Positions 5,955 to 36,718 of a stretch of 64,000 nucleotides of DNA are shown piece after piece (within the stretch, counting starts at the first letter, position 1; each line of letters begins with the position of its first letter). The position numbers and the translations under genes were made by a program. The DNA is from Streptomyces sp. QL37 (GTDB lineage: Bacteria; Actinomycetota; Actinomycetes; Streptomycetales; Streptomycetaceae): positions 1,550,001 to 1,614,000 of the forward strand of contig NZ_PTJS01000001.1 in assembly GCF_002941025.1 (NCBI RefSeq), read 5' to 3'. The notes under the pieces are model-generated. The model ran no database searches, was not told where the DNA came from, and saw nothing but the letters and a program-made list of their open reading frames with translations.

Positions 5955-5981
5955 CTAAAATCTATCAGCTAATAATTTTGG
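5955..5981. promoter_or_regulatory. operator A, site 1 (araB)
   Basis: A 27-bp imperfect palindrome with left arm CTAAAATCTATC and right arm ATAATTTTGG stands out in GC-rich DNA. It lies upstream of araB and is one of seven copies in the window. A repressor or activator site is inferred from recurrence and position. Confidence 0.75.
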
Positions 5982-5993
5982 AGGCCACTCCCC

Positions 5994-6030
5994 CGTGGGG
6001 CAGGCGCCGGTCACCGGCACCCGCCCCACG
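5994..6030. terminator. hairpin between GH2 gene and ara promoter
   Basis: Nested arms CGTGGGGC / GCCCCACG and GCCGG / CCGGC with a TCA loop form a compact hairpin 13 bases from operator A. It probably stops leftward transcription from the GH2 gene before the araB promoter. Confidence 0.5.
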
Positions 6031-6193
6031 ACCTTTGGCCCATCGGCCACGGTGCTGTCCTACGTCAAGGCCAGGCCGGAGGCCTTTCGTGGCATACCTG
6101 CCGCCGCCCGCCCCACGGAAGGCCCGGGCAGTCGAAGGCGGCGGACCGGCCGCGGCAGGCCGAAAAACCGTATGCCGGTGACTCGGCGGTGCA

Positions 6194-6253
6194 GCCGAAG
6201 TGGCCCCTGCCGGTCATCCACGCGCACGCCGGATCGGGCCGGACCACTTCGGC
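6194..6253. terminator. possible GH2 gene terminator
   Basis: Perfect 10-bp arms GCCGAAGTGG and CCACTTCGGC are separated by 40 bases, about 70 bases after the GH2 stop. The long loop makes termination uncertain; the rest of the gap holds no gene. Confidence 0.3.
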
Positions 6254-6322
6254 GGTACGGGCGACGAATCAGCGCCTGGGCGTCAGCTGTGAACACCGCT
6301 CCTGATCTGCGCCCAGGGAGGC

Positions 6323-8776
6323 TCATTCAGCGGTGACGACGGTTTCGACCGGCTCATACCCGGGCGCGCTCACGGCGAGACGGATTTTACCGGGCCCGGT
6401 GGCGCGCAGTACGGCAAGCGCACGCCCCTCGTAGGTACGGCGGGTGGTCGTGTCGAAACGTTCCTCGGTCGAGGGGTTCGCGCTGCCGAACGCAAGCAGG
6501 ACGCCCGAACCGCTGACGTCCACGCTGACCTCACAGTCGTCAGCCGTGTGGCAGACGCCCTCGGCATCGGTGAGCTCCACGGTGACGTAAACCAGGTCCG
6601 CGCCGTTCGCAGCCACGCTCTGCCGGTCGGCCTCGACGGCCAGGTGCACAGCCTCCTGAGCCGAACGCACCGCACTTCGCCCGGTCTCGACTCCACCGCG
6701 GTAGGCGATGGCCAGCAGCTCGCCGGCTTCGTAGGCCGTCTCGAATTCGGTACGGAAGCGATGATCCGCACCGACTTCGCGCCGCCCGAGGGAGCGACCG
6801 TTGACGAAGAGCTCCAGCTCATCGGCGTCGCTGTACACCTCTACGGCGATCGGCGAGCCCTCGAAGCCGGGCCAGGTCCACGAAGAGATGGTGTCGCTCC
6901 ACGCCCAGGGCGAACCCGCCCATGCCTTGCCGTGCCCACCCGGCCTTCGAACCGCGATGTAGGGCTCCGAACGCAGGCCGAAGACGATCTCCCGGTAGTA
7001 AGAGGCCGGCCGCCGGTGGCCGGTGATGTCGATGTCTCCGCAACCCGCGACCAGGTAGGGGTAGGGCCCGTTGTGCGCGTGCTGCGGCTCGTCCGGCCCT
7101 GCGTACCGAGCTCGTCCTATGCCGACCTCGCCGAGGTACTCCCAGCCTGTCCAGGTGAAGTCACCGATAACGTGGCTGTTCCCTTCCACGAGACGCCAGT
7201 TGCCGTCGATGCGGGTGGGGAAGGTCTCCGTGCCCAGAATGACGCGGTTGGGGAAAAGTTCGCGATCCAGCGCGTAGCGCGCTTCGGCGTAGTTCATGCC
7301 TGCGACATCGAGGACAGCGAAGGACTCTGCGGTGCGCTGGGTGACGAGTTCGGAGGAGCTCACCGCGTTCATCGCGTCGCCGGCGTCGGCCATGAGGGTG
7401 TTGATCCCGGCACCCTCCTCGGCCGCCTGGTCCAAAGCCTGTTGCTGGAGGGCCCCCAGCTCGGACATCACAGCGAGCATGCCGTTGACAGCGTTGGTGA
7501 CATAGCGGGTGGGGTCCAGGGAGCGGACCTTCTCGGCCAGCCGCCGCCCCCACAGAGCACCGAACGGCGAACCCGTCTCCGGGATCTCGTTGCCGATCGA
7601 GTACATGATGACGCTTGGGTGGTTGAAGTCCTTGGCGACCATTGCCCCGAGGTCCCGTTCCCACCACTCGGGAAAACTCAGGCTGTAGTCGAACTCGCTC
7701 TTGCCGGAGGTCCAGACATCGAACGACTCGTCCACGACGAGCACGCCGATGCGGTCGCACGCGTCCAGCATCGCCCTGCTCATGGGCTGGTGAGAGATGC
7801 GGATCGCGTTGAAGCCCGCCTCCTTGAGGATCTCCACCCGGCGCTCCTCAGCCCGGGCGAAGGTCGCCGCACCAAGGGGCCCATTGTCATGGTGGACACA
7901 GGCACCCCGAAGCTTCACGGTCTCGCCATTGATGCGCAGGCCCTGCTCGGGGTCGAGCTGCAAGGTCCGGATCCCGAAGGTGGTCCCTGCTTCGTCCACC
8001 TGCTCGGCGCCCTCCTTCAGAGTCACACCGCACGCGTAGAGTGCGGGGGATTCCGTGCTCCAGAGGTCGGGCCGCTGCACATAGAGCCGCTGACGGAGCA
8101 CTGCCGGTTCACCGGGCAGCACCGTGACCCGTGAGACGTCACTCGCGACGACCTCCCCGGACCCCGTGGTGATGGCAGTGAGAACGTCCAACGTCCTTAC
8201 CGCAAAGGACTGGTTCACCACCTCCGCCACAACCTCGACCACGGCACGGGCGTGATCGACGTCGGGAGTGGTGATGCGAAGACTGTCGGGCGCGAGGTGC
8301 GTCTGCTCTCCGACGAGTAGCCACGTGTCTCGATAGATGCCCGCGCCGGTGTACCACCGCGAATCGCGGTGGGCGCGCGCCTCGACCCGGATCTCGTTCG
8401 CCTCGCCGTACTTCAGGAAGCGGTCGGCCTCTATCCGGAACTGCGAGTAGCCGTAAGGCCGCTGCCCCGCATAGTCGCCGTTGATATAGACGGCCGCGTC
8501 CCTGTACACGCCCTCGAACTCCAGGATGATCCGCTTCCCGCGGTACCCCTCGGGGACGTCGAAGGTCTTCCGGTACTCGAAGACACCGCCTGGGAAGTAG
8601 GCGCCGGCCGCCCCCTCCATGGTGACCTCACCCGCAGGGGCTACCCGGTTCTGTTCGATCATCGCGTCATGCGGAAGCGTCACGGACCGGTAGGGGACAA
8701 CCTGGCCGGACAACTCAGCGAAGGGATTGGCCTTGGGCCGGACCTGCCAGCTGTCGTTGAAGGACGTGCGGATCAT
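6323..8776 (-). CDS. GH2 family beta-galactosidase-like glycosidase
   Basis: This 817-residue glycoside hydrolase carries the GH2 sugar-binding, immunoglobulin-like and TIM-barrel domains followed by a DUF4982-like and a C-terminal Ig-like segment. The acid/base is E397 in YSIGNEIP and the nucleophile is E517 in LGTETFP. No signal peptide is visible, so it should act inside the cell on imported oligosaccharides. The start was set at MIRTSF because GGAG lies six bases upstream; the open frame continues into operator A and cannot be coding there. Activity on beta-galactosides is typical for the family, though arabino- or galacturono-linked substrates are possible in this context. Confidence 0.88.
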   Translation of the reverse strand: MIRTSFNDSWQVRPKANPFAELSGQVVPYRSVTLPHDAMIEQNRVAPAGEVTMEGAAGAYFPGGVFEYRKTFDVPEGYRGKRIILEFEGVYRDAAVYINGDYAGQRPYGYSQFRIEADRFLKYGEANEIRVEARAHRDSRWYTGAGIYRDTWLLVGEQTHLAPDSLRITTPDVDHARAVVEVVAEVVNQSFAVRTLDVLTAITTGSGEVVASDVSRVTVLPGEPAVLRQRLYVQRPDLWSTESPALYACGVTLKEGAEQVDEAGTTFGIRTLQLDPEQGLRINGETVKLRGACVHHDNGPLGAATFARAEERRVEILKEAGFNAIRISHQPMSRAMLDACDRIGVLVVDESFDVWTSGKSEFDYSLSFPEWWERDLGAMVAKDFNHPSVIMYSIGNEIPETGSPFGALWGRRLAEKVRSLDPTRYVTNAVNGMLAVMSELGALQQQALDQAAEEGAGINTLMADAGDAMNAVSSSELVTQRTAESFAVLDVAGMNYAEARYALDRELFPNRVILGTETFPTRIDGNWRLVEGNSHVIGDFTWTGWEYLGEVGIGRARYAGPDEPQHAHNGPYPYLVAGCGDIDITGHRRPASYYREIVFGLRSEPYIAVRRPGGHGKAWAGSPWAWSDTISSWTWPGFEGSPIAVEVYSDADELELFVNGRSLGRREVGADHRFRTEFETAYEAGELLAIAYRGGVETGRSAVRSAQEAVHLAVEADRQSVAANGADLVYVTVELTDAEGVCHTADDCEVSVDVSGSGVLLAFGSANPSTEERFDTTTRRTYEGRALAVLRATGPGKIRLAVSAPGYEPVETVVTAE

Positions 8777-8851: not shown

Positions 8852-8878
8852 TGAAAATCTATCATCATAAAAATTTAG
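8852..8878. promoter_or_regulatory. operator A, site 2 (GH2 gene)
   Basis: The 27-bp element has left arm TGAAAATCTATC and right arm AAAAATTTAG. It lies 76 bases before the GH2 start codon, in the divergent spacer with the permease gene. Confidence 0.75.
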
Positions 8879-9089: not shown

Positions 9090-9116
9090 CGAAAATCTAT
9101 CGGTCCAAAATTTTGC
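9090..9116. promoter_or_regulatory. operator A, site 3 (permease)
   Basis: The element has left arm CGAAAATCTATC and right arm CAAAATTTTGC. It lies 60 bases before the permease start. The roughly 400-base divergent spacer therefore carries one site per promoter; nothing else was recognised in it. Confidence 0.75.
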
Positions 9117-9175
9117 GAGCTAGTGTGCGCGCTGGGAGCAGAGGGCTCCACCCGCACGAAAGGCTGGGGTGCCAC

Positions 9176-10639
9176 ATGACACTCGACGTCGAGTCATCAC
9201 GAGGGGAAGAAAGAGCCGGATCATCCGGTTTTGGTGCACGGTTCGCCCTGATTCTGATCGCGCTGCTGTGGGCTTCCCAGCTGAACGGTCTTGTCGGTCT
9301 GATGGGGTCCAACGCTCAGTCCGAGATCGCGATCCACTACCACACCACCCAGATCGCCTGGTTCAGCCAGATCGGCCTACTGGTAGGCGTCTTCTCCACA
9401 CCGTTCGTGGTGAAGGCCGCCGGCATGTACGGCAAGAAGCGGATCCTGATCGTTATCACCGCACTGGGCCTTCTCGGCGACCTCATCGCGGCACTCTCCA
9501 CGAACTTCGAGACGCTGCTCATCGGTCGCGCTGTCGCCGGCTTCTACGGCCCGTCGATCGCCCTCGTCTACGCAATGGCCCGTGACGTGTTCCCACGCCA
9601 TCTGGTCGGTCCTGCCAGTGGTTTCCTCGGCGGTGGCATGGGCGTGCTGGCCCTTGGCGGCCCCTTCCTGTCCGGATGGGTCATCGACAGCTTCGGCTAC
9701 CAAGGTGTCCTGTGGTTCATGGTGATCGCCACCGGGGTCAGCTTGGTAGCCCTCGTGACCATCGTGCCCGAGAGCCCCGTGCGAGAGGCCCGAACTCCGA
9801 TGGACTGGGTCGGAGGCATCCTGCTGGGCGGGGGCCTGGCGTCCGTCATCTACGGCGTGGGCCAGGGCGCGGAATGGGGCTGGACCAGCGGGAACACCAT
9901 CGCCTTCATCGGCTGCGGGCTCGTCGCCGTGGGCGTCTTCGTCCAGGTCGAGCGCAAGGTCGCGCATCCCATGTTCCCGATATCCTTGCTCGGGCGCCGC
10001 AGGGTGTGGGCGACCTTCCTGGTCGCGGCCCTCGTCATGGGAGCTGTCTACGCTCAGGGCACCGTGCTGAACCTGCTCATCCTCATGCCCGACATCCCCG
10101 GCCTTTCCGACGGTCTCGGGTGGACGGCTACGAAGAATGCCTGGGTCAGCGCGCCCAACAGCCTCCTCCTCATCGTCGTCTCCGTAGTCACCGGTGTCAT
10201 CGCCCGGCGTATCGACACCCGCCTTCTGTTCGCGATCGGTGGCACATTGGTCGCCGCCAGCATCGCGCTCACCTCACAGTTCCACTACAGCGTCGCGCAG
10301 TTCCTGTCGGTCGGTGTGCTCAGCGGGATAGGGATGGGCATCGTCGTAGCTCTCGTTCCCATCATGATCATCGAATCGGTGAAACCGGAGGAACAGGCTC
10401 TGGGTAACGGCGCACAGAACATGATGCAAGGCGTCATGCAGGGCATCTTGACCCAGCTCGCCTTCGTGGTCGTCGCGCACAACAGCAACGTGGCGGAAGG
10501 CACCGCCTTCTACACGGACAGCAGCTTCACCAACGGGTTCCTCCTGTTCGCCGGGGTGGTGGCCGTCGGCACCGTCCTGGTCGCGCTTATTCCCAAGGCC
10601 AAGAACCTGGACCAGGTGGAAGCCGGCCAAGCGGCCTGA
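9176..10639 (+). CDS. MFS transporter, DHA2-like (about 14 TM)
   Basis: This 487-residue integral membrane protein has many hydrophobic helices, an early motif resembling MFS motif A (GMYGKKR) and a GFLGGGMGVLALGGPFLSGW stretch like motif C of drug:H+ antiporters. Length and pattern fit the 14-helix DHA2 group, usually exporters. Here the gene shares operator A with arabinose genes, so sugar, sugar-acid or oligosaccharide transport is inferred. The start MTLDVES was chosen because the upstream in-frame ATG would place operator A inside the coding region. Confidence 0.85.
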   Translation: MTLDVESSRGEERAGSSGFGARFALILIALLWASQLNGLVGLMGSNAQSEIAIHYHTTQIAWFSQIGLLVGVFSTPFVVKAAGMYGKKRILIVITALGLLGDLIAALSTNFETLLIGRAVAGFYGPSIALVYAMARDVFPRHLVGPASGFLGGGMGVLALGGPFLSGWVIDSFGYQGVLWFMVIATGVSLVALVTIVPESPVREARTPMDWVGGILLGGGLASVIYGVGQGAEWGWTSGNTIAFIGCGLVAVGVFVQVERKVAHPMFPISLLGRRRVWATFLVAALVMGAVYAQGTVLNLLILMPDIPGLSDGLGWTATKNAWVSAPNSLLLIVVSVVTGVIARRIDTRLLFAIGGTLVAASIALTSQFHYSVAQFLSVGVLSGIGMGIVVALVPIMIIESVKPEEQALGNGAQNMMQGVMQGILTQLAFVVVAHNSNVAEGTAFYTDSSFTNGFLLFAGVVAVGTVLVALIPKAKNLDQVEAGQAA

Positions 10640-12138: not shown

Positions 12139-12906
12139 TCAGACCGCCGCCCAGGCATCGTCGACCGGCAGGACCACGCCGTTGACGAACGATGCCGCGT
12201 CGGACGCCAGATAGAGGATCGCGTCAGCCTGTTCCTCGGCAGAGCCGAGCCGCCCGATGTTCGCATTGATAAGTCCGCCGACGACCGCAGGGCCGTGGGC
12301 GTCCGCCGCCGCGTCCGGACGCATAGCGGTGGCCGTGGGGCCCGGGGCAACAGCGTTGGCCCGAATGCCCTGCGCCCGGTACATGACCGCCAGGTTCTTG
12401 ACCAGGCCCACTATGCCGTGCTTGGAAGCCGTGTAGGCCGCTCCCGCGGCGCTGCCTCGCAGGCCGGCCTCCGAGGCGGTGAACACGATGGAACCGCCTC
12501 CTCCGGCGAGCATGTGCGGCAGCACGGCGCGGGTCAGCAGGAACGGCGCCGTCAGATTGATCCGGAGAGTGCGTTCCCACTCCGCGTCCTGCGTCTCACC
12601 GAGTGCTGACATGCGGTCCATGATCCCGGCGTTGTTGACCAGGACGTCTATGCGCCCAAAGACTTCGACGGCGTTCGCTACGACTGCGTCCACCATCTGC
12701 TGCTCGCTCAGGTCTCCCACAACGGCGTGAGCGGAGCCGCCTTCCGCTGTGATCTGCTTGACGGTGTTCTCGGCGCCGACCTGGTCGAGATCCGCAACCA
12801 CCACCTTCGCCCCTGCCTGCGCGAACTTGAGGGCCGTAGCCCTGCCGATGCCTGAGGCGGCGCCGGTGACGATGACGCTGCGGCCTTCAAAGCCAACACT
12901 GGCCAT
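12139..12906 (-). CDS. SDR family oxidoreductase
   Basis: This classical short-chain dehydrogenase of 255 residues has the cofactor loop TGAASGIG (14-21), NNAG (91-94), catalytic S145 and the Y158-x3-K162 pair. An Asp after the second beta strand (VADLD) suggests NAD(H). Substrate cannot be read from sequence; sugar or polyol dehydrogenases are common in this group. AAGGAA precedes the ATG. Operator A is present upstream but about 410 bases away, with a doubtful small ORF between. Confidence 0.9.
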   Translation of the reverse strand: MASVGFEGRSVIVTGAASGIGRATALKFAQAGAKVVVADLDQVGAENTVKQITAEGGSAHAVVGDLSEQQMVDAVVANAVEVFGRIDVLVNNAGIMDRMSALGETQDAEWERTLRINLTAPFLLTRAVLPHMLAGGGGSIVFTASEAGLRGSAAGAAYTASKHGIVGLVKNLAVMYRAQGIRANAVAPGPTATAMRPDAAADAHGPAVVGGLINANIGRLGSAEEQADAILYLASDAASFVNGVVLPVDDAWAAV

Positions 12907-13314: not shown

Positions 13315-13341
13315 TGAAAATCTATCACGCAATAAAATTGA
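13315..13341. promoter_or_regulatory. operator A, site 4 (SDR region)
   Basis: The element has left arm TGAAAATCTATC and right arm ATAAAATTGA. It is the copy furthest from a sure gene: the SDR start is about 410 bases to the left. Confidence 0.65.
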
Positions 13342-24306: not shown

Positions 24307-24382
24307 GGGGCGGCTCCGGAGGCTGCGGTGCGGACGGGTGGGCAGGTCACTCCGATGGGACGCGATCCGCCGACTGGAGATT

Positions 24383-24396
24383 ATTAAATATGAATT
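24383..24396. promoter_or_regulatory. operator B, site 2 (galactonate operon)
   Basis: ATTAAATATGAATT is the exact reverse complement of site 1. It lies between the divergent-looking spacer of the SDR gene and the GntR gene, 77 bases before the SDR start. Confidence 0.65.
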
Positions 24397-24463
24397 ATTG
24401 AGCGAGGCCAAGGTGCCTCGCTTGAGGCACGGATCACAGCATGCGTGAGCAGCGCCCGCCGGT

Positions 24464-25680: not shown

Positions 25681-26334
25681 TCAGTCCTCAGGAGTGACCG
25701 GAGCCCGCCAGAGGGCGACGATGACGTCGATCAGCCCGTTCGCAGTGTCGTGCCAGCTGCCTCGGAACGTGGGCGCGCTGTTCGCAAGGGCACGCTCCCG
25801 TTCAGCCGTCATCTGCGTGATGAGGTGACGGGTCATGGCCTCCCGCTCCGCGTGTACCTCCGCGGGGAGATGGGGAAGGCAACGGTTCAAGCCGTTCTGC
25901 AGTGCGCCCATCGAGGGCGACGCGCGCGCGAACTCCTCCGCGGCGACCGCGTGCAACCCAGGGTCTGCGGTGACCTGGGCGATGAACCGGGCGTACCAAC
26001 TGGGGACGCCCAGAGCCTCGACGTGGCCCGTCACGGGACGAACCGCGCACGCGACCCAGTCCCGCAGGTCCGTTGAGTCACCCGTGTAGCTCATCATGAG
26101 CTCGCGCCTAGTCTCGATCCGCTCCGCATGCGTCCGGAGAATGGCCCGGACCAGGTCGATCTTGGTACCGAAGTGATAGTTGACCGCTGCGGTGTTGCCC
26201 TGCCGGGCTGCCGCGCTGATCTCGCGGTTGGTGACCGCGTGCACGCCACGCTCGGCGAACAGCATCTCCGCCGCTTCCAGAAGCGCTTCCCGGGTCGCGC
26301 TCACCTGTTCGACGCGCTTCGTTCTCTCCGCCAT
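25681..26334 (-). CDS. TetR family regulator
   Basis: This 217-residue protein has a TetR DNA-binding domain (HAVTNREISAAARQGNTAAVNYHFG) and a longer C-terminal ligand domain with a conserved RFIAQV segment, as in TetR proteins of the TetR_C_36/YbiH-like kind. The ATG was preferred to GTG codons immediately upstream. It is divergent from the GH43 gene, 370 bases from operator A, so it is one of the few local candidates for the operator A binder. That link is speculative. Confidence 0.88.
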   Translation of the reverse strand: MAERTKRVEQVSATREALLEAAEMLFAERGVHAVTNREISAAARQGNTAAVNYHFGTKIDLVRAILRTHAERIETRRELMMSYTGDSTDLRDWVACAVRPVTGHVEALGVPSWYARFIAQVTADPGLHAVAAEEFARASPSMGALQNGLNRCLPHLPAEVHAEREAMTRHLITQMTAERERALANSAPTFRGSWHDTANGLIDVIVALWRAPVTPED

Positions 26335-26808
26335 CACCACCACCGTTTCGGGACGTCAGGGCATTACGTAGGCCCGTATCCCGGCCCCCGCCACCCGCCT
26401 GCCGAACCGACGAGTGCGCACGGACGAAAGGGTACGCACATTCTCGCGACTCTGATCCGCGCGTCTGCCTGGGCCGCGGGACGGCCCCCGCCATGTATCC
26501 ATACCAGCCCCGGCAGTCCCTCCCCCCGGGGTGGCCTGCGTGCAGACGTTCAGCTCAGAAAGCACATACGACAGCCCACTCCGAGCTCCCACCGTACGAG
26601 GCCTCGCCCCATCGCCACCACGGGGTGCGCCGCACTCATCGGGCTGCGCCCTCGTTCGTCGGTCATCGGACTGTCGCGAGCACGGAAAGGCACCACCTGA
26701 CGCTAAATTCTATCGACCATCAACTTTAGGGTCTAGGGTGGACATCCCCACTCCCCAATACCTGAGGCCCTCCTGCCTCTGACCACACCCGTACTCCTAG
26801 GGACACGC
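26335..26808. other. divergent spacer before the GH43 gene
   Basis: Apart from operator A near its right end no gene, hairpin or repeat was recognised here. Confidence 0.5.
26703..26729. promoter_or_regulatory. operator A, site 5 (GH43 gene)
   Basis: The element has left arm CTAAATTCTATC and right arm TCAACTTTAG, so both outer ends read CTAAA / TTTAG. It lies 80 bases before the GH43 start. Confidence 0.75.
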
Positions 26809-28320
26809 ATGAGCGCCCGCAACGCCCTCCCGGTCATTCCGGGCTTCTACCCTGATCCGTCCGTCTGTCGTGTCGGCGACGACTACTACCTGGTGACCTC
26901 CAGCTTCGAGTACTTCCCCGGCGTCCCCATCTTCCACAGCCGCAATCTGGTCGACTGGAAGCAGATCGGCAACGTCCTGGACCGGCCCGGCCAGCTCGTT
27001 GTGCGGCCTGGCAGGGAAGGCGCGAGTGCGGGCATCTACGCGCCCACGATCCGGCACCACGACGGCCGGTTCTGGGTGACGACGACCAACCGCGAAACGG
27101 TCATGGACGGGCACCTCATCGTCCACACCGACGATCCCGCGGGCGACTGGAGCGACCCGGTCCACACAACCGGCGCTCTCGGGATCGACCCGGACCTGGC
27201 ATGGGACACGGACGGCACCTGTTACCTGACCTACTCCTCCCCCGGCGGCATCTGGCAGACCACGGTCGAGCCGACGACCGGCAAGGTCCTGTCCACGCCC
27301 CAGGTCATCTGGACCGGGACCGGTCTGGCCCACCCCGAAGGGCCGCATTTGATCCGGCGCGGCGCCTACTGGTACCTGTTGATCGCCGAGGGGGGAACCG
27401 GCCCCGGCCATGGGATCTGCCTCGCACGGTCAGAATCGCCCTCCGGCCCCTGGGAATCGCACCCGAACAACCCTGTGCTGAGCCACCGGAGCACGGAACA
27501 CCCGGTGCAGAACACCGGCCATGGCGACCTGGTCGAGCTGCCCGACGGCTCCTGGGCCATGGTGCATCTGGGTGTACGACCCCGTGGCTCATTTCCCGAG
27601 ACGCACGTCAACGGCCGCGAGACCTTCCTCACCGGAATCGACTGGGTGGACGACTGGCCGGTGGTTGTCGAGGACCGCTTCACCGTCCCGGAGCAACCGA
27701 CCGCGTTCACCGAGGAGTTCGCCGGCCAAGGGCTGGACCCGCGCTTCGTCGCCCCAGGGGTTGACCCGCGTTCGTTCACCGAGATCACGCCAGGCGGGGG
27801 CGTGCGCCTGGCGGCCGGGCGGGCCCCTGAGGCACGGGAGGCCGAGAGGCTACTCGCCTTCCGCGCCCGCGACACTGCGTGGACGGCCACCGCGACCGTT
27901 CCGGAAGGCGACGTCGCCTTCGTCGTGCGCATCGACGACGCCCACTGGGCCGGGCTGGAGCGCCGGGGCCGGACACTCTCTGCACGGGTCGTCATCGGCC
28001 CACTGGACCAGGTCCTGGCCTCCGTCGAGGATGCCGCCCCGGATCGGCCCCTCGTCCTGCGCACGACCTCCAACACCGAACAGTTCAGTTTCGCCAAAGG
28101 CCCTGACGACCTGCACCTCGGCTATCTGGGCGAGGAAGGGTTCCAACCTCTGATCACCATCGACGGCCGCTACCTCTCCACCGAGGTCGCAGGCGGCTTC
28201 ACCGGTCGCGTCATCGGTCTCGAAGCCCTGAGCTCCGGCACCCTGGTGACCAGGCTGACCTACACGCCCGACCCGGTTCTTGAGCCGGCCCCATCTCACC
28301 AGCCTGCCGTGGAGGCCTGA
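26809..28320 (+). CDS. GH43 beta-xylosidase / alpha-L-arabinofuranosidase
   Basis: This 503-residue GH43 enzyme has a five-bladed propeller followed by a C-terminal beta-sandwich of the beta-xylosidase C2 type (from about residue 305). The triad is D16 (FYPDPS), D127 (GIDPDL) and E177 (HPEGPH). No signal peptide is present, so it acts on imported xylo- or arabino-oligosaccharides. AGGGAC precedes the ATG. It is monocistronic under operator A. Subfamily 11/12 features are visible but the xylose versus arabinose preference cannot be decided. Confidence 0.92.
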   Translation: MSARNALPVIPGFYPDPSVCRVGDDYYLVTSSFEYFPGVPIFHSRNLVDWKQIGNVLDRPGQLVVRPGREGASAGIYAPTIRHHDGRFWVTTTNRETVMDGHLIVHTDDPAGDWSDPVHTTGALGIDPDLAWDTDGTCYLTYSSPGGIWQTTVEPTTGKVLSTPQVIWTGTGLAHPEGPHLIRRGAYWYLLIAEGGTGPGHGICLARSESPSGPWESHPNNPVLSHRSTEHPVQNTGHGDLVELPDGSWAMVHLGVRPRGSFPETHVNGRETFLTGIDWVDDWPVVVEDRFTVPEQPTAFTEEFAGQGLDPRFVAPGVDPRSFTEITPGGGVRLAAGRAPEAREAERLLAFRARDTAWTATATVPEGDVAFVVRIDDAHWAGLERRGRTLSARVVIGPLDQVLASVEDAAPDRPLVLRTTSNTEQFSFAKGPDDLHLGYLGEEGFQPLITIDGRYLSTEVAGGFTGRVIGLEALSSGTLVTRLTYTPDPVLEPAPSHQPAVEA

Positions 28321-28407: not shown

Positions 28408-29104
28408 TCAGTCTGCGCTGCCCGACACGCCGCGGCTACGCGCGACGTTCCCGAGCCAGGCCACACTCGGCTTCGGCGTGCGGACGATGGTCCGACGGTC
28501 GACGGCGATGAGTTCGAACGTCGGCGCCCAACGGCCCTGTTCGAAGTTGTCCGGCGCGACCGTTGCAGACCCGCGTACGTCGACACCTTCGGCGACCACC
28601 GCGTAAAGGTGCTCGAGGGCCCGGCTGGTGCAGGCGATGGGACGCGAGTCGTCGTCGGTGGCAATGCCGTTCTCCGTGACGAGCAGCAGCAAGCTGCCGT
28701 CGGTGTCCTCCCACGCCTGGCGCGGAGCGGCGCCCAGCCAGTCATCACCGTGGGGACCCGAGTGATAGAGGCCCTCCCATTCCCTCCGCGGTCGAGCGTG
28801 TAGCCGCTCGCTCCGGGTGAAGGGACGAGTGCCTGCTGCGCCACGGTCCATCCGACCTTCGCGCTGGTGTGCTCGCGGACGACGGCGACGGCTGCGCGAT
28901 GTGTGCTCCCGCCTCCGCCAACAAGCGCATCTCCTGGGGGTAGCGGTTGCATCTGCCACAAGCGTCGCCGCTGAGTTCCAGGTGGCCGCGGCTCTGGTGT
29001 TCCATGCGCCACCAGTCGCTGTGGCGGCTGTTGCCCTCGGTCTGGTGCGGCAAGGTGGAAGCGCCCCACAAGATGCCGGGACGGAGGCCGGGGACACAAG
29101 TCAT
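28408..29104 (-). pseudogene. GH1 beta-glucosidase remnant
   Basis: Three frames are needed to read this gene. The start (LRPGILWGASTLPHQTEGN, then SDWW) and RYPQEMRLLAEAG are the GH1 N-terminus. SAKVGWTVAQQALVPSPG and then LLVTENGIATDD, with the nucleophile Glu, belong to the C-terminal half, followed by RTPKPSVAWLGNVAR. The central 200 or so residues carrying the TxNEP acid/base are deleted and at least two frameshifts remain, so it is inactive. Its start overlaps the preceding GH3 remnant as ATGA, so both once formed one operon. Confidence 0.8.
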
Positions 29105-29508
29105 CGCATGGCCTCCAGGATTCGATTCAAGTCGTCGGCGGACACCGGGACTCCGGGGAAGTGCGGGTACTGGCCGGCCGGAATGGAGGCGACCACGTCC
29201 GTGAGATCGCTGCCGGCTTCGGCCCGTCGGCGTTGTTCCTCGGTCATCCCGGCCAGGAGTACGTCCTGAAGCAGCGGTCCGGCGACCGGATGGGAGAACC
29301 AGTCGCCGATCGCGGAGTCCAGGGTGAGCGCACCGTTCGCAGCGTCGCCGACTACGGCGAGTGACCTCTCAGCAACACCTCTCACGTCGACCTGGCCGAC
29401 TGGGCGCGCTCCATCCTCTTCCGGTTGCCGAGCAGACGAGAAATCGCCGCTCGGGTGCAGCAAGGCCTTCTCTTCCCGGGAGGGCGCTACGGGTTCGGAC
29501 TGCGGCAT
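29101..29508 (-). pseudogene. GH3 beta-glucosidase remnant with large internal deletion
   Basis: A continuous 135-residue frame joins a GH3-like opening (PSREEKALLHPSGDF, compare the usual LEEKASLTSGGDFW) to the tail found at the end of some actinobacterial GH3 enzymes (LTLDSAIGDWFSHPVAGP.. to ..ILEAMR). The catalytic barrel, about 700 residues, is missing. The frame, an SD-like AAGGGA and an upstream operator A have survived, so a short peptide may still be made, but it cannot be a glycosidase. Confidence 0.65.
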
Positions 29509-29608: not shown

Positions 29609-29635
29609 CTAAAATCTACCATTTAAAAAATTTAG
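29609..29635. promoter_or_regulatory. operator A, site 6 (decayed GH3-GH1 operon)
   Basis: The best-preserved palindrome of the set has arms CTAAAATCTACC and AAAAAATTTAG. It lies 101 bases before the GH3 remnant start. No gene was seen between it and the TetR gene to the right. Confidence 0.75.
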
Positions 29636-29825: not shown

Positions 29826-30491
29826 TCAGCCCGTGGGCGGCTCCGCTCGCGCCCCGGACGTGGTTGCGCCCGGACCGGTCAACAGGCGGGTGAACGTCTC
29901 GGCGATGGTCGCGATGTCGACTGTGGGATCGTGCATCCATTGGATCTGCAACCCGTCCAGGACGGCGAGCAGCGCCCTGGCCAGATGTTCCGCAGGTGCG
30001 TCGTCTCGCATTTCCCCGAGTCGCTGCTGTGTTGCGAAGTCCCGCGTGACCTCGTCGGCGAGGGTCCGGTAGCGGTTACGGAAGTGGTCGTACGCCGGGC
30101 TTGCAGGATCGGTGGCCGCCGCTGAGAGCGTGACGTACAGCTTCGCGAGCCCGGGGTGATCGGTGGTGTGGCGGGCACTCGCCACCATTCCGTCGATCAT
30201 GGTGTGCTCGGTCGAAACCGCGGCTGCCGTCGCCTTCCCCATCGCGTCACGTCGTTCGAGGACGGCGAGGAGGAGGTCATCGCGAGTGGGGAAATAGTAG
30301 GTGAGTGCCGGCTGCGTCACTCCGACCCGGTCGGCGATGTCCTGGAGGGAAGCTCGTTCTCCGTGCTCGTCGATGGCCTCGTAAGCGGCCTGGAGGATCT
30401 GCTCCCGCCGCTCGGCGCTCTTGCGGTAGGGCCCCCGCGGCTTTCGCGGCTTCGTCACTGCGGAGCTTCCCGATTTCTTCTTGTCCGTCAC
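29826..30491 (-). CDS. TetR family regulator
   Basis: This 221-residue TetR protein starts at GTG after a Lys-rich tail. The HTH ASLQDIADRVGVTQPALTYYFPTRDDLL is clear, followed by a BetI-like/TetR_C_6 C-terminal domain (LHPG-type segment DHPGLAKLYVTLSAAA). It is separated from rhaB by hairpins and reads away from it, so it is a lone unit beside operator A site 6. Control of the rhamnose or glucosidase genes is possible but not shown by sequence. Confidence 0.88.
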   Translation of the reverse strand: MTDKKKSGSSAVTKPRKPRGPYRKSAERREQILQAAYEAIDEHGERASLQDIADRVGVTQPALTYYFPTRDDLLLAVLERRDAMGKATAAAVSTEHTMIDGMVASARHTTDHPGLAKLYVTLSAAATDPASPAYDHFRNRYRTLADEVTRDFATQQRLGEMRDDAPAEHLARALLAVLDGLQIQWMHDPTVDIATIAETFTRLLTGPGATTSGARAEPPTG

Positions 30492-30668: not shown

Positions 30669-32072
30669 CTACAACGTGCGGTCGAAAGAGCGCTCGGCCA
30701 AGGCACGCAGCGCCTCCGGATCCGGGGAGACATGTCCTGCCGCCGCTGCCTGGATCAGGACGTTGCCCAGCGCCGTGGCCTCCGCCGGTCCCGCCAGGAC
30801 CTGAAGCCCTGAACGCTCTGCGATCGCCTCGCGCAACAGCGCGTTGCGGGACCCGCCCCCCACCACATGGATGCGGTTGATGGAGCGCCCGGTCAGCCGT
30901 GAAGCCGCTTCTACCGCGAGGGAGAAGCTTTCGGCCAAGCTGTCCACGATGGACCGGACGATCTCCGTCTGTGAGCGCGGCGGCTCCAGTCCCCGGTCGT
31001 CGTACCAGTCCACGATCCTCTGCGGCATGTCTCCCGGCCCGGAGAAGACCGGATCGTCCACGTCGAAGACGGGCCTGGCCGAGACAGCCCGTGCACCGGC
31101 CAGGAGCTGCGGCAACGTGCGGGCATCACCCAGCACATTCCACCGGCGGACGCATTCATTGAGCAGCCACAGCCCCATCAGGTTGCGCTGGAAGCAGACT
31201 CTGCCGCCGTGGCCCACCTCGTTGGTGAAGCCTTCCTGATAGGCGTCCTCGCTGACGAGGGGGGTCTCGAGTTCCACCCCGGCCAGACCCCACGTCCCAC
31301 AGCTGATGTAGGCATCGCCGGGGCGGAGGGGAGTCGCGGCCACAGCGCAAGCCGTGTCGTGCGACGCGACGGAGGTGATCATCAGCCGCTCGTTCCCGAC
31401 TGCCCGCCCGACGTCGGCGAGGACGGGGACCTGCTCGTGACCGGTGCCGACAAGTGGCGGCAGCGCGGTGTCGGGAAGTCCCAGTGACCGGGCGAGTTGT
31501 CCGTCCCAGGCGCCGTTCACGTCGAGCAGCCCCGTCGTCGAGGCGATGGAAGGCTCAGCGCGCTGTACGCCGGTGAGCAGGTACTCGACCAGTTGCGGAA
31601 TCAGGAGAACGGAATCACCCTCCTTCAGCCTTGCGTGGCGCCGGTCGTCCACCAGTTGGTACAGCGTGTTGATGGCCATCGGCTGCACACCACTGCGCCG
31701 GTACAGGTCGGCCGGCCGGAGATGCTGGTGCACGTCCTCAGCGACAGGAGCGGTGCGGGGGTCCCGGTAGTGGAATGGATCGTCGACCAGCGCCCCTCGC
31801 CGCACCAGGCCGTAGTCGACGCCCCATGAGTCGACCGCCAGGCCGGAAAGTCCCGGCTCCAGGCGAACGGCTTCCCGGAGACCCTCCATGATGTGGGTGT
31901 GCAGCTCGCCGATGTTCCACCTCAGCGTCGAGCGCGCTCCCTGCCACTCCTGGACGGGTGTGTTCGAGAATCGTCTGATCTCCCGGAGTGAGACCCGGTC
32001 GTCCGTGACGGTACCGAGCATGACCCGGCCACTCGTCGCACCGAGGTCGACCGCAGCCACTGAGTGCGTCAT
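30669..32072 (-). CDS. rhaB: rhamnulokinase
   Basis: This FGGY-family kinase phosphorylates L-rhamnulose at C1. Its 467 residues carry the N-terminal loop VDLGATSGRVML, the block SWGVDYGLV, GTWGLAGVE and the C-terminal HVVGGGSRN adenosine site, all typical of RhaB rather than xylulo- or glycerol kinases. It is the last gene of the rhamnosidase-aldolase-isomerase-kinase operon, 88 bases after rhaI. No strong SD is visible. Confidence 0.95.
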   Translation of the reverse strand: MTHSVAAVDLGATSGRVMLGTVTDDRVSLREIRRFSNTPVQEWQGARSTLRWNIGELHTHIMEGLREAVRLEPGLSGLAVDSWGVDYGLVRRGALVDDPFHYRDPRTAPVAEDVHQHLRPADLYRRSGVQPMAINTLYQLVDDRRHARLKEGDSVLLIPQLVEYLLTGVQRAEPSIASTTGLLDVNGAWDGQLARSLGLPDTALPPLVGTGHEQVPVLADVGRAVGNERLMITSVASHDTACAVAATPLRPGDAYISCGTWGLAGVELETPLVSEDAYQEGFTNEVGHGGRVCFQRNLMGLWLLNECVRRWNVLGDARTLPQLLAGARAVSARPVFDVDDPVFSGPGDMPQRIVDWYDDRGLEPPRSQTEIVRSIVDSLAESFSLAVEAASRLTGRSINRIHVVGGGSRNALLREAIAERSGLQVLAGPAEATALGNVLIQAAAAGHVSPDPEALRALAERSFDRTL

Positions 32073-32160: not shown

Positions 32161-33333
32161 TCACCAGCCCGCGGGCGTGCCGACGCGCTCGTCGATGCGC
32201 TTGCGGCGCTCGGCGGACCCGGCGAACGCCTTCAGCGGGTTCTCCGGCACGCCGAGCCGCTCGCGCAGCTCACGCAGCATGGGCCGCACGTCGGTCTCAT
32301 AGGCGTCGGAGAGCACCTCGTTGGCACCTACGACGTCCCCCTGGGCCTGATGCTCGGCCAACTCCTCGTGATCGACGAGAAGGGCCTTCGCGAAGGCGGT
32401 CTGCATAGCGGTGACGCTACGCAGCATCGCGGGGATCTTGTCCTCGACCATCGCGCACTGATCGATCTTGTAGAGCACCGCACGGGCCGTGTCCGCGACC
32501 GATGCCGCCGGATCGTCCTCCGCCTTCACCAGTTCGAGAGCTATCAGGAACAGTTCGTGGGGGTTGATCGCACCCACGAACAGGTCGTCGTCCGCGTACT
32601 TCTTGTTGTTCAGGTCGAAGCCACCGAGCCGACCCTCGTCGAGCAGGGTGGCCACGATGTGCTCGATGTTCACACCGAGTGCGTGATGCCCGAGGTCGAC
32701 GAGCACCTTGGCCCTGTCGCCAATCTTCTGACACATGGTCAGCGACTGACCCCAGTCCGCGATGTCTGTGTGGTAAAAGGCCGGCTCGAAGAGCTTGTAC
32801 TCGAGGATGAGGGTCATGTCGTCGTCGAGAGCCTCGTAGATCTCACGCAGCGACTGGAGGATGTGGTTACGGCGGATCCGGAAATCACCCTGGCCGGGGT
32901 AGTTCGTGCCGTCGGCCAGCCACATCGACATGGTCTTCGATCCGGTCGCCCGCATCACGTCGACGACCTCCTGCGAGTGCCCGATCGCCTTCCGCCGGAC
33001 CGCCGCGTCGAGATGAGCGAGGGAACCGAAGCGATAGTCGTCGTCCTGGAAGAGGTTCGGGCTGATCGATCCTATGCGCACCCCCTGGTCGGCGGCGTAT
33101 CGCGCGAGAGCGCCGTAGTCGTCGACACGGTCCCAGGGAATGTGCAGGGCAACGCTGGGGGCGACGCCGGTCAGCCGGTGCACGAGAGCGGCGTCGTCGA
33201 TCTTCTCCCAGACGTCACGGGGTGTCCCAGGAGTGTTGAAGACCTTGAAACGGGTCCCCGTACTCACGTATCCCCAGGATTGCGTTTCTATGTGCTGAGC
33301 CGCCAGACGGTCGAGGATCTGGCTCTTACTCAT
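32161..33333 (-). CDS. rhaI: L-rhamnose isomerase
   Basis: This TIM-barrel isomerase of 390 residues interconverts L-rhamnose and L-rhamnulose. It is of the type known from Pseudomonas stutzeri rather than E. coli RhaA. Metal-site motifs are visible: LEYKLFEPAFYHT with its Glu, DLGHHALGVN with Asp and His, and GGFDLNNKKYADDD. The ATG at MSKSQI was chosen on family length; the SD is poor, and a GTG three codons upstream is also possible. It starts 53 bases after the aldolase gene ends. Confidence 0.93.
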   Translation of the reverse strand: MSKSQILDRLAAQHIETQSWGYVSTGTRFKVFNTPGTPRDVWEKIDDAALVHRLTGVAPSVALHIPWDRVDDYGALARYAADQGVRIGSISPNLFQDDDYRFGSLAHLDAAVRRKAIGHSQEVVDVMRATGSKTMSMWLADGTNYPGQGDFRIRRNHILQSLREIYEALDDDMTLILEYKLFEPAFYHTDIADWGQSLTMCQKIGDRAKVLVDLGHHALGVNIEHIVATLLDEGRLGGFDLNNKKYADDDLFVGAINPHELFLIALELVKAEDDPAASVADTARAVLYKIDQCAMVEDKIPAMLRSVTAMQTAFAKALLVDHEELAEHQAQGDVVGANEVLSDAYETDVRPMLRELRERLGVPENPLKAFAGSAERRKRIDERVGTPAGW

Positions 33334-33386
33334 AGTTGTCACTGACTGCCTACTTTCATGAAAGGGGAAGGCCGGGGCCTGCCGCG

Positions 33387-34169
33387 TCACTTCGCGTCGG
33401 TCGAGAGCATGCCGCGCCGCAAGAGCTCGTCCGGCCGGGTATCGATCCGCTCGCAGTCTTCGGCGGAGAGATACGCGGGCACGCCCACAGTCATGGTGCC
33501 GAGCAGGACACGGGCACACTTCGTCGCCATCTCGGTGATGTCCAGCACCTCCCGGGAGGAGTTACCGAGTGCGAAGAAGCCGTGGTTGGCCAGGTAGATG
33601 GCTTTTGGGGCTGTTCCGTGGCTCGCGGAGAAGGCCCGCAGGTCCGCCCGGACCCGCCGCGCCAGGGCGAGACCGGGGTCGACATAAGGGACGAGGAGTT
33701 GGTGGCGCCCGAGCACGACGATCTGGTCAGGGATGAGGCTTCCCTGGACGAGCAACTCCGGTCGGCTGGAGCAGAGAAAGGCGTTGAGGTCCGCCGGGTG
33801 GCTGTGACCGACGACGGTGGCGTTGCCTTCGTCGACGCAGACCGCGTGCAGCAGGGACTCCACCGATGGGCGCTTGCCCTCGGGATCGGTTCGTGCTGCC
33901 TCAAAGGCCGCTTCGACGTGCTGGTCCCCGACCCGGTCCCCGTCGATGAGCTCCAGGAGAGCAGCCAGCCGGACCTGCACGAAGTCGGACGGCTGGGCCT
34001 CTCGCATCCGGGCACCACTCGCCTTGACCAGCAGAGTGCCGTCACCGAGGGATGCGGAGACGTTGCCTTCCGCCACGCACGCCCAGTCCTGATCCTCGTG
34101 CCCGAGCCGCCGCGAGAGATGGACCAGATCGGCGGCGACGGAGGAGACGCTCTCGTCGGAGGGAAGCAT
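33387..34169 (-). CDS. rhaD: class II aldolase, probable rhamnulose-1-phosphate aldolase
   Basis: This AraD/FucA/RhaD-family aldolase of about 260 residues should cleave L-rhamnulose 1-phosphate to dihydroxyacetone phosphate and L-lactaldehyde. Zinc ligands are visible as H122 and H124 (GHSHP) and H196 (LANHGF), with a candidate general acid/base near E104 (SVESLL). The sequence is divergent from E. coli RhaD, and it lacks the C-terminal dehydrogenase domain of the bifunctional RhaEW/YuxG type. A GTG three codons upstream has a closer SD-like AAAG. The assignment rests mainly on operon position. Confidence 0.8.
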   Translation of the reverse strand: MLPSDESVSSVAADLVHLSRRLGHEDQDWACVAEGNVSASLGDGTLLVKASGARMREAQPSDFVQVRLAALLELIDGDRVGDQHVEAAFEAARTDPEGKRPSVESLLHAVCVDEGNATVVGHSHPADLNAFLCSSRPELLVQGSLIPDQIVVLGRHQLLVPYVDPGLALARRVRADLRAFSASHGTAPKAIYLANHGFFALGNSSREVLDITEMATKCARVLLGTMTVGVPAYLSAEDCERIDTRPDELLRRGMLSTDAK

Positions 34170-34226
34170 GATGTGCACAGCTTTCGTCAGTAGCGGGTGT
34201 GTTGTACGTCCTGGACGGATGTGCGG

Positions 34227-36521
34227 TCAGAGGACAGGAACCCGTTCTTCGATCTGGTGGCGCCCCGGGGCGAGGGTCCGCTCGGCCATACCCGGCAGGC
34301 TGAGAATCCCCTCGGTTCCTTCCGGCACCTGTACTGCGGCCCGTATGCGGTCGCCATCGATGCTCCAGTCGATGGCCGCTTCCCCCTGCGGGGTGCGCAC
34401 GCGCGCGGCGGCCGACGACAGTCCGCCTCCGGGCCTCGGCGCGAAGAGCACGCGTCGGTAGCCCGGCTCCAGCGGGCTCAGCCCCGCCACTACTCGGTGC
34501 ATCCAGTCCGCGACGGATCCGAATGCATAGTGGTTGAAGCTGGTCATCTCGCCCGGGTTGACACTTCCATCGGGGCGGATCGCGTCCCAGCGCTCCCAGA
34601 TCGTGGTCGCACCCATGCTGACCTGGTAAAGCCAGGACGGACACTCCTTCTGGGTCAGCAGACGGTAAGCGGTGTCAGTGTGGCCGGATGCGCTCAGCGC
34701 ATGGAGGATGAAGGGCGTTCCCACGAACCCGGTCGCGATGACATGGCCACCATCGGCCACCAGTTGGGCCAAGCGGTCGCCGGCCGCGCGGGCACCGGCC
34801 CCGGAGACCAGCCCGAAGGCGATGGCCAGGGCGTACACGGTGGGTGCGTCGGAGCGTATCCGGCCGTCCGTACCCACGTAGCGGGTGGTGAAGCCCTGCC
34901 GAATCCGGTCGGCGACCAGGGCGCGGCGCTCAGCCTCCTCGTCGTCGCCGAGGGCCCGCGCCATCCGGGCGGCCAGATCGACGGAACGGTACATGCAGGC
35001 GGTGGCCAGGACCTCTCGGTCCGCGCGGGCGGCGCTGGGGTCCTCCGGCGGAGCGGCCGGGTCGAGCCAGTCCCCGAGCTGGAAGCCCTCGGTGAGTGTC
35101 CCGTCTTCATTGAGAGTGTCCTCGATGAGCTTGAGGTAGTCCGCCACCGACCGGCGCTGCTCCTCCAAGAACCGGAGGTCCCCGTACTGCTCGTACAGGG
35201 CCCACGGGATCCAGACGGCACCGTCGTGGTAGAGGGCCATCGGTGCAGGCTTGATGACGACTCCCTCAGGAGGCGTGTACATACCCGTCTCGTATTTGAG
35301 TACGTCGGGTACGACGATGGGGACCAAGCCCCCGGCCTTCTCCTGCTCCAGGGAAAGGTCTCGCAGCCAGTCACGCATGAAGTCCCGTACGTCGAAGAGG
35401 TACGCGGCCGTGGGCGCGAAGGCGGCCAGGTCTCCGATGTAGCCCATGCGCTCGTCACGCTGCGGACAGTCGGTGGGCACCTCGAGGAAGTTGCCGCGCA
35501 TCCCCCACACGACGTTCTCGTGCAGACGCGTGAGATCCGCGTCCGAGCAGGAGAAGTGCCCGGTGCGTTCGAGGACCGATCCGACCACCACGGCCTTGAC
35601 GGCTTCGACGGCCGACTCGTCCGTGCCGGTCCATCCTTCGATGGTGGCGTACTGGAAACCGTGGAAGGTGAACGTCGGCTCGAGCACGTCCTCGGCCCCG
35701 GACAGGACGTACCGGTCCACAGCCGCCGCCGACCGCAGCGGACGCACCGAGAGATCGCCGTCCTCCAGCACTTCGGCGTGGCGGACGACCAGTTCGGCCC
35801 CCTCGGCCCCCTGCACCCGGATACGGAGCCAGCCGACGATGTTCTGCCGGAAGTCGAGCAGCAGGTGGCCCTCAGCGGTCCGCCCCACGACGGTGGGGGC
35901 GATCTCCTCATGTCGGCGCACGGGCGGTCCGATGTACGGCTCCAGCACCGAAGGATCGAAGTCCACCACCCGCGCCTGGGTCCATACGTCGTCCGGGGCA
36001 AGATGCGCATCGGCCGGCATCAGAAGCCGGGTGTCCGTGACCTGCCCATCGTACCAGTCGTCGGAGAGGACCCCACTCGATGCAGCCTGCCAGTGTTCAT
36101 CGGTCACCACGGTCTGGCGGTGTCCGTCCTCGAAGGTCAGCAGCAGTTCGGCGGCGGCCGCGCGTTCGGGACCGTAGACGGACTGCATCCCGAGCCAGCC
36201 CATCCGGCCGCGGTACCAGCCGTTGCCGACGGAGAGCACCACTATGGTCGTGGGCCGGATCAGTTCGCGTACGTCCCATTCGGCGTATCGCAGCCTCTGT
36301 TCGTACGCGGACCATCCCGGCGTGAGCACATCCGGCGAGGCGGGCACACCATTCAGGCGGGCTTCGACCACTCCGAGGGCCGTCGCCCTGAGAACGGCCG
36401 CGACCACGGCGCCATGGCCGGCGTCCAGATCGACCGAGGTTCGCAGCAGCGGCGCGGACGGACAGTCGGCTGTGATCATCCGCGCTGACCAGTGCGGAGA
36501 TGGCGCGTTGCGCTCGGACAC
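34227..36521 (-). CDS. GH78 alpha-L-rhamnosidase
   Basis: This enzyme releases terminal L-rhamnose from glycans and glycosides. The 764-residue protein starts at a GTG preceded at ideal spacing by GAGGAG. It has an N-terminal Bac_rhamnosid_N-like domain (ARLNGVPAS..WSAYEQRL), a beta-sandwich, the (alpha/alpha)6 catalytic barrel and a C-terminal sandwich. The general acid is E357 (CPQRDERMG) and the base E643 (TTIWERW). It lacks the first accessory domain of longer homologues and any signal peptide, so it should be cytoplasmic. It opens the rha operon, operator A being 171 bases upstream. Confidence 0.93.
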   Translation of the reverse strand: MSERNAPSPHWSARMITADCPSAPLLRTSVDLDAGHGAVVAAVLRATALGVVEARLNGVPASPDVLTPGWSAYEQRLRYAEWDVRELIRPTTIVVLSVGNGWYRGRMGWLGMQSVYGPERAAAAELLLTFEDGHRQTVVTDEHWQAASSGVLSDDWYDGQVTDTRLLMPADAHLAPDDVWTQARVVDFDPSVLEPYIGPPVRRHEEIAPTVVGRTAEGHLLLDFRQNIVGWLRIRVQGAEGAELVVRHAEVLEDGDLSVRPLRSAAAVDRYVLSGAEDVLEPTFTFHGFQYATIEGWTGTDESAVEAVKAVVVGSVLERTGHFSCSDADLTRLHENVVWGMRGNFLEVPTDCPQRDERMGYIGDLAAFAPTAAYLFDVRDFMRDWLRDLSLEQEKAGGLVPIVVPDVLKYETGMYTPPEGVVIKPAPMALYHDGAVWIPWALYEQYGDLRFLEEQRRSVADYLKLIEDTLNEDGTLTEGFQLGDWLDPAAPPEDPSAARADREVLATACMYRSVDLAARMARALGDDEEAERRALVADRIRQGFTTRYVGTDGRIRSDAPTVYALAIAFGLVSGAGARAAGDRLAQLVADGGHVIATGFVGTPFILHALSASGHTDTAYRLLTQKECPSWLYQVSMGATTIWERWDAIRPDGSVNPGEMTSFNHYAFGSVADWMHRVVAGLSPLEPGYRRVLFAPRPGGGLSSAAARVRTPQGEAAIDWSIDGDRIRAAVQVPEGTEGILSLPGMAERTLAPGRHQIEERVPVL

Positions 36522-36691
36522 AAGAACTCCTCGAACAGGAACGATGAATACGGACGAAAGCCTCGGTGGGCACTCGACCGTCGATGCCGCCGCGATGTCG
36601 TGAGGCACGCCCACCACCGGTCGCCTCGACCAGGGAACCGGACACCACTGGAACAGACGCGACGGGCAGCCGGACGAGCGCCGGCGCCCGT

Positions 36692-36718
36692 CAAAATCTA
36701 TTGGTGATAAAAATCTAG
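36692..36718. promoter_or_regulatory. operator A, site 7 (rhamnose operon)
   Basis: The element has arms CAAAATCTATT and ATAAAAATCTAG. Counting from the first C, the two ends match as in other sites but shifted by one base against the consensus. Confidence 0.7.

Follow-up and report, generated by a model that had tools for sequence, protein, structure and literature searches.

Which regulator reads the seven copies of an AT-rich palindrome that recur among sugar-catabolic genes of Streptomyces sp. QL37, and what do the genes behind them break down? The window, the whole 64,000-nucleotide stretch analysed here, is C1:1550001-1614000 of the 8.78-Mb QL37 genome, and minus coordinates denote bases before its start. 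An original prediction from this DNA had described the copies as one operator of a sugar-polymer regulon and named no regulator. Comparative genomics now makes it probable that the motif is the operator of TetR1, a TetR-family protein encoded among these genes, and that TetR1 represses a dedicated glycoside-catabolic cluster until a ligand releases it.

The operator approximates CGAAAATCTATC-n-AAAAAATTTAG, a 27-bp pseudo-palindrome whose sites include the stretch AAAATCTA. Its best symmetry is an inverted repeat over 27 columns (r = 0.64); a direct-repeat reading was set aside as weaker (r ≤0.55 for shifts of 8 to 19, over 9-20 columns). All seven predicted copies are present, although the consensus proposed for them proved idealised: the 25-bp pattern TAAAATCTATCNNNNTAAAATTTAG fits two of the seven within three mismatches (none in 100 shuffles). 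A whole-genome scan with AAAATCTATC-N6-AAAATTT at up to three mismatches returned nine matches, all within C1:1547825-1586715, namely the seven window sites, a shifted match at 13301 overlapping the site at 13315, and an eighth site at C1:1547825, 2.2 kb ahead of the window and upstream of a glycoside hydrolase (GH) family 3 gene. At this threshold no match in the QL37 genome lies outside the cluster, contrary to the prospect, raised with the original prediction, of a motif scattered away from sugar genes, and a backwards control pattern gave one match in the whole genome. A matrix built from 24 sites in other genomes, which is not fully independent because those sites were collected with a pattern derived from the QL37 sites, ranks the eight sites top in 104 kb (22-48 bits; six simulated versions of that stretch reached at most 14.9 bits). 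It also adds a ninth, weaker site at about -13310 (20.1 bits), flanked on one side by a TetR2 paralogue that adjoins a P450 operon and on the other by a GH78 gene. The conserved unit extends beyond the palindrome: 22 of 32 sites have C[CT]AG fixed at +6 to +9 past their core, its second base being T almost solely where a same-strand gene follows.

Across QL37 and the other genomes, the site list has 34 entries, made up of 32 distinct sites, a duplicate and a weak QL37 site; 31 of these entries face a gene start within 450 bp. These counts exclude the shifted match 13301, G010, and loci L037, L039 and L045 (duplicates of G062C54, G177 and G180), and the L040 site, identical to that of G177, is counted once among the 32. 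The genes faced are GH2 (7), Baeyer-Villiger monooxygenase (BVMO; 7), MFS permease (6), GH43 (4), GH3 (4), araB (2) and others, the QL37 GH2 and permease being counted twice. As predicted, sites precede the arabinose, the rhamnose and several glycosidase operons. The spacing of 60-180 bases given for them holds for araB, GH2 and GH43; the permease site falls 1 bp short of it and the GH78 site lies farther out (Table 1). The site at 13315, left unassigned before, lies ahead of an SDR gene. The GH3-GH1 pair behind site 29609 is decayed, as had been noted.

TetR1 is named as the likely regulator, with good confidence, by its co-occurrence with this motif. At E ≤ 1e-60, with seven first-look candidates scored in each genome, it is present in seven of 392 same-genus genomes. 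Allowing up to two mismatches, the motif occurs in six of the seven genomes with TetR1 versus five of the 385 without it (Fisher 6.6e-10, a value that overstates independence, given shared ancestry among the genomes and possible transfer of the clusters between them), and the backwards control gave one match across the 392. At three mismatches the motif is found in all seven. The five matches without TetR1 (one each in G010, G213, G259, G301 and G349) are treated as background, with no regulon genes around them except one 48% aldehyde dehydrogenase (ALDH) in G213; the DNA read spans 19 kb in G213, 20 kb in G010 and about 3 kb in each of the others, 3 kb being too short to exclude neighbours. 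One further three-mismatch match, at C2:5648674 of G180, is intragenic and distant from that genome's cluster. Distant TetR1-like genes are frequent (52 of 199 genomes with a match at E ≤ 1e-30), and the score gap is wide, with orthologues at 373 bits or more versus 187 bits for the next best (G110). An alignment of five TetR1 orthologues recovered 14 close relatives at 72-82% identity in 12 named organisms, some of them the same strains as numbered genomes: ten Streptomyces (two with two loci each), Frankia sp. AgB1.9 and Marinitenerispora sediminis. Twelve of the 14 loci carry the motif (up to three mismatches) within about 10 kb, and the six TetR loci of lower identity (34-44%) all lack it.

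The protein itself has the expected architecture. An N-terminal TetR_N helix-turn-helix (PF00440, 42.7 bits against a cut-off of 24) is followed by a C-terminal ligand domain matching PF13977 (29.8 bits, cut-off 27), and the predicted model is all-helical, with nine helices (predicted local distance difference test, pLDDT, 87; predicted template modelling score, pTM, 0.78). The best 50 of its 265 PDB matches at E ≤ 0.001 are TetR regulators, putative transcriptional regulators or entries that we take to be TetR-type proteins. Invariant residues among 13 orthologues are concentrated in the DNA-binding half (54 of 70, versus 45 of 123 elsewhere), and the 27-bp pseudo-palindrome linked to TetR1 is a candidate for the inverted-repeat operator that a TetR protein would bind near its targets. 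In L036 the motif heads GH78-rhaD-rhaA-rhaB-GH2-tetR1, and in G225, first met in an enlarged sample, the motif, a 705-aa gene and tetR1 stand in a row; such motif-headed runs ending in tetR1, of which the window holds another, fit autoregulation.

The position of the sites relative to promoters is consistent with repression. A TAGNNT hexamer, which resembles the Streptomyces -10 consensus, stands at a fixed offset of +7 to +12 in all 11 sites with a same-strand gene (MFS permease, GH43 and two others). Among the 20 sites assigned only the other way TAGNNT is absent, and a single site has TAG, lacking the final T (Fisher for TAG, same-strand versus other sites, 1.4e-7). In this comparison 29609 and 36692, which have no facing gene in the 450-bp listing, were allotted manually, the first to the decayed GH3 and the second to GH78; the farther opposite-side genes of 8852, 9090 and 26703 (at 425, 315 and 361 bp) were ignored; and G055 32292, which faces no start, was left out. 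Changing the debatable assignments keeps Fisher between 3.5e-7 and 4.0e-6: moving 8852 to both sides gives TAG in 11 of 12 versus 1 of 19 (1.6e-6), and dropping the two hand-assigned sites as well gives 4.0e-6. The operator would span roughly -43 to -17 in same-strand promoters. In the opposite direction the invariant half reads GATAGATTTT, containing a -10-like TAGATT, and CTGG or CTAG tentatively appears about 17 bp upstream in many sites. Both geometries would place the operator over the core promoter and, as read from sequence, fit a repressor.

What the repressed genes would act on is suggested by where their products work and what accompanies them. Fourteen regulon glycosidase N-termini (four from QL37 and ten from relatives, one of the ten being a 710-aa protein), judged by hydropathy alone from gene starts set by our own gene caller, include no clear signal peptide. 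The highest, the L036 GH78, reaches 1.62 from residue 26, and secreted-looking controls reach 1.82 and 2.31; the window GH78, whose start resembles that of L036, is not among the 14. None of these N-termini looks like that of the secreted depolymerising enzymes expected of a polysaccharide regulon. In relatives, moreover, the operator precedes a BVMO-SMP-30-type-SDR operon (seven facing sites). The motif stands before the BVMO gene in all seven loci compared, two of which (L039, L040) are near-identical, in DNA that is otherwise largely divergent apart from a shared start-codon stretch; MAFFT aligned it in five of the seven, and in L045 and L048 it lies nearer the start. The best solved relative of the BVMO is 5mq6, which we take to be a polycyclic-ketone monooxygenase, and the relatives' SMP-30-type protein is matched about equally by the Vgb_lyase and SGL models. 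QL37 has its own BVMO at -4267 to -2417 (61-63% identity to that of the relatives) and, at -5475 to -4633, an SMP-30 gene that differs from theirs (about 28-34% similar in parts). Farther upstream lie two P450s, a ferredoxin, a GH31, a second GH78, an esterase and an MMPL transporter, together with genes read by eye as ferredoxin reductase, ALDH and alcohol dehydrogenase. Aglycone-oxidising enzymes (BVMO, P450s, ferredoxin and, by similarity, SDR) are thus linked to glycosidases, and GH2, GH3 and GH78 are clustered here as in saponin or steroid-glycoside loci, the GH3 being recognised by similarity to that of the relatives. The best solved relatives of the L036 GH3 are beta-glucosidases. The best GH1 relative, SGR_2426, is associated with beta-1,2-glucan in the available part of its report, a likeness that neither supports nor excludes a glycoside substrate.

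The missing signal peptides, a co-regulated MFS permease that recurs as a target in five loci (QL37, G055, G062, L036 and L044) and the BVMO operon together point to a small glycoside rather than a polymer, leaving the sugar-polymer label without support; small-glycoside catabolism is the better name. Gene content suggests that the cluster breaks down a small plant glycoside whose aglycone can be oxidised and is probably terpenoid or steroid (saponin-like), and which is decorated with arabinose, rhamnose and glucose, galactose or xylose; "saponin" is our best guess at the substrate. TetR1 would sit on or beside the core promoters and, without ligand, block RNA polymerase, until a ligand frees it from the operator; that ligand may be the glycoside once imported, the aglycone or an early product. 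Four groups of genes would then be switched on: the MFS permease; the intracellular glycosidases GH2, GH3, GH43 and GH78 (with GH1 in relatives); the pathways that use the freed L-arabinose and L-rhamnose; and, under the same operator in relatives, the BVMO/SMP-30-type/SDR operon, which would open the aglycone. A bolder proposal, slightly less likely than not, is that TetR1 marks a sporadic, probably mobile "glycoside catabolon" in Streptomyces and related actinobacteria. One hydrophobic signal would trigger import, complete deglycosylation, L-arabinose and L-rhamnose use and the oxidative opening of rings in an aglycone of triterpenoid or steroid type. A single asymmetric operator would serve promoters of both orientations: on one strand the -10 box would stand just outside it, and on the other the box would be TAGATT inside the invariant half.

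Other readers of the sites have to be weighed against TetR1. Of the two local TetR proteins originally put forward, TetR2 fits less well than its partner, which is the one that co-occurs with the motif. Copies of TetR2 flank the two weakest sites (26703 and -13310), and, counted among the TetR1 genomes, a match at E ≤ 1e-15 is found in six of seven, at 58% identity or more in five. However, G062 has six sites and no TetR2 match at that threshold, G225, despite its perfect site, offers just one relative of 39% identity, located elsewhere, and in G177 and G195 the relative sits on a different contig; TetR2, though tested less fully than TetR1, is disfavoured by these four genomes and very unlikely to be the protein that binds. 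The sites might instead serve an activator, or form a composite promoter read by another factor, with TetR1 travelling along and binding elsewhere, which would accommodate both the conserved block running past the palindrome and the lack of a clear -35 on the same-strand side. We consider this quite unlikely, given a site centre near -30 relative to the TAGNNT box, overlapping the promoter, a position unusual for an activator, and a 27-bp inverted symmetry that suits a dimeric repressor.

A different challenge leaves TetR1 on the sites and changes what it senses: the genes would form a plain plant-sugar regulon for arabinan or rhamnogalacturonan oligosaccharides, with a sugar as signal and the oxygenases as neighbours from another pathway. 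The presence of araBAD, the rha genes, GH43, GH78 and GH2 under the sites would suit such a regulon, as would L040, where an operon read by eye as ABC-type and a 47% GH78 lie ahead of tetR1. It is nevertheless unlikely in view of the 14 N-termini, of the seven gene-facing sites directly ahead of BVMO in relatives, and of a permease under the sites that is of MFS type, no site facing an ABC importer in the loci read. Several observations do weigh against TetR1 as repressor of a glycoside cluster, besides the breadth of TetR2 matches and the relatedness behind the Fisher values. The direction and distance of the sites vary. The QL37 BVMO has no strong site before its start in the matrix scan, so that its control by the operator is putative there; no characterised saponin hydrolase was matched by any of the enzymes. 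An ABC-type sugar importer, read by eye, lies near tetR1 in L039 and L040, and LacI-like genes, recognised by eye from their N-termini, lie near it in L038, L040 and G225; the window regulators scanned are two LysR, one GntR and two TetR, with no LacI among them. Two TetR1 loci lack the motif, L038 and L043 (a 3.3-kb contig), and L048, another locus of L038's genome, carries it.

The proposed TetR1 system bears some resemblance to the CamR type of TetR repressor, which controls terpene (camphor) catabolism: both would pair a TetR repressor with P450 and BVMO enzymes for a terpenoid. The CamR regulon is not known to include glycosidases or sugar pathways. Sphingobium, an alphaproteobacterium, provides a second comparison. 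According to the available text of PMC10653915, Sphingobium sp. RC1 catabolises tomatine, a steroid saponin, and combines glycosidases with aglycone-oxidising enzymes in one organism, as proposed here. Its aglycone, however, is processed by enzymes orthologous to known steroid ones, and neither "TetR" nor "Baeyer" appears in the main text. A further comparison is with the trisaccharide utilisation loci of Glutamicibacter halophytocola S2 and Arthrobacter sp. S41, which remove the sugars of potato steroidal glycoalkaloids and are described in the accessible portions of PMC9597252 and PMC10653915. These share with the window cluster the grouping of GH2, GH3 and GH78 in an actinobacterium, a likeness by family (PMC9597252), whereas the window cluster adds araBAD, rha genes, GH43/GH1, an MFS permease and oxygenases. 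Searched by term, the main text of PMC9597252 contains none of the words "TetR", "regulator", "MFS" and "transporter". In the part of PMC3870299 available to us, a LacI-type RhaR of Actinomycetales controls L-rhamnose genes and rhamnose-oligosaccharide uptake, the rhamnose regulators named belong to the LacI, DeoR and AraC families, and the sole match to "TetR" is a kit name. The window regulon differs from that of RhaR in that its linked regulator is a TetR protein and arabinose genes share the operator. If the assignment is true, arabinose and rhamnose operons would come under a TetR repressor, unlike the types in that portion of the rhamnose survey. Among the matches listed from open-licence literature, nothing concerned this motif, TetR1 or a TetR-controlled saponin locus.

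The comparison turns an orphan motif into a candidate regulator-operator pair that can be tested in days. Genes for breaking down plant defence glycosides are called largely unknown in the available text of PMC10653915, and TetR1 with its motif would offer a handle for finding such pathways in actinobacteria, as well as a possible biosensor for these compounds.

Table 1. Operator sites and associated features of the window. Bits are matrix scores; distances to araB, GH2, the MFS permease, GH43 and GH78 use start codons corrected by homology.
Feature	Coordinates	Strand	Remarks
GH3 gene, 3' end	1..219	+	gene start ~-2057; site ~-2175 (L010) 95 bp ahead of start
araD, L-ribulose-5-phosphate 4-epimerase	1676..2413	-	subfamily model, curated cut-off passed
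araA, L-arabinose isomerase	2466..3971	-	curated cut-off passed
araB, ribulokinase	4035..5774	-	curated cut-off passed
Site 1	5955..5981	+	36.7 bits; 180 bp ahead of araB start codon (5774)
GH2 glycosidase	6323..8776	-	no clear signal peptide
Site 2	8852..8878	+	45.6 bits; 75 bp ahead of GH2
Site 3	9090..9116	+	35.7 bits; 59 bp ahead of MFS permease start (9176)
-10-like TAGTGT, MFS permease promoter	9121..9126	+	fixed distance from site 3
MFS permease (MFSa)	9176..10639	+	orthologues under operator in four other loci
SDR	12139..12906	-	78-82% identity to SDR of relatives' BVMO operon
Site 4	13315..13341	+	42.4 bits; 410 bp ahead of SDR gene (-)
TetR2	25681..26343	-	paralogue beside P450 operon; does not accompany the motif consistently
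Site 5	26703..26729	+	22.2 bits, weakest of the seven; 79 bp ahead of GH43
-10-like TAGGGT, GH43 promoter	26734..26739	+	fixed offset from site 5
GH43, beta-xylosidase / arabinofuranosidase type	26809..28320	+	no clear signal peptide
GH3 and GH1 remnants	28429..29400	-	GH3 C-terminus alone; GH1 pieces in three frames
Site 6	29609..29635	+	48.3 bits; between TetR1 and decayed GH3-GH1 pair
TetR1, proposed repressor	29826..30458	-	210 aa; PF00440 and TetR_C_6
rhaB-like rhamnulokinase	30669..32072	-	best model TIGR02627, below its cut-off
L-rhamnose isomerase	32161..33342	-	curated cut-off passed; start inferred from L036 orthologue
Class II aldolase, RhaD-like (rhamnulose-phosphate aldolase)	33387..34178	-	below curated cut-offs
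GH78 alpha-L-rhamnosidase	34227..36479	-	start resembles L036 GH78 start
Site 7	36691..36718	+	32.0 bits; ~212 bp ahead of GH78, head of GH78-rhaD-rhaA-rhaB-tetR1 gene run

Some minor observations concern variants of the operator and of the two TetR proteins. A GH31 gene (L070:14293-16320, minus strand) has a weak palindromic site about 39 bp ahead of its start, at about -23641, whose 12.7 bits fall within simulated noise. On contig C50 of G062 (L026-L028), a GH2 gene and GH2 fragments carry three sites, two of them reading AAAATCTAGC, in an area that adjoins two TetR1 relatives of 33-38% identity, and a local divergence of operator and regulator is possible there. In L071 (G110), a 44%-identical TetR1 relative lies beside an MFS permease, GH78 and GH3, and the motif is absent from the 20 kb read; we read this as a related regulator that would have a different operator. 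The two TetR2 paralogues of one genome, at L010:5753-6376 (minus strand) beside the P450 operon and at window 25681-26343, are 67% identical.

Inside the regulon, window 19681-25195 holds a D-galactonate pathway cluster that lacks operator sites and carries a GntR/FCD regulator of its own; it comprises a galactonate dehydratase above its cut-off, a kinase below it, an SMP-30 gene and an aldolase read by eye. A gene for a 705-710-aa protein (L024:6960-9092, L041:7645-9762 and L078:9078-11195) immediately precedes tetR1 in G225, whereas in G055 and L041 its neighbours are GH2 and tetR1. The protein has no Pfam match above cut-off and a weak one to GH65 (E 0.0077), and an AlphaFold model from three alignment rows was unusable (pLDDT 33); it is possibly an undescribed type of glycosidase.

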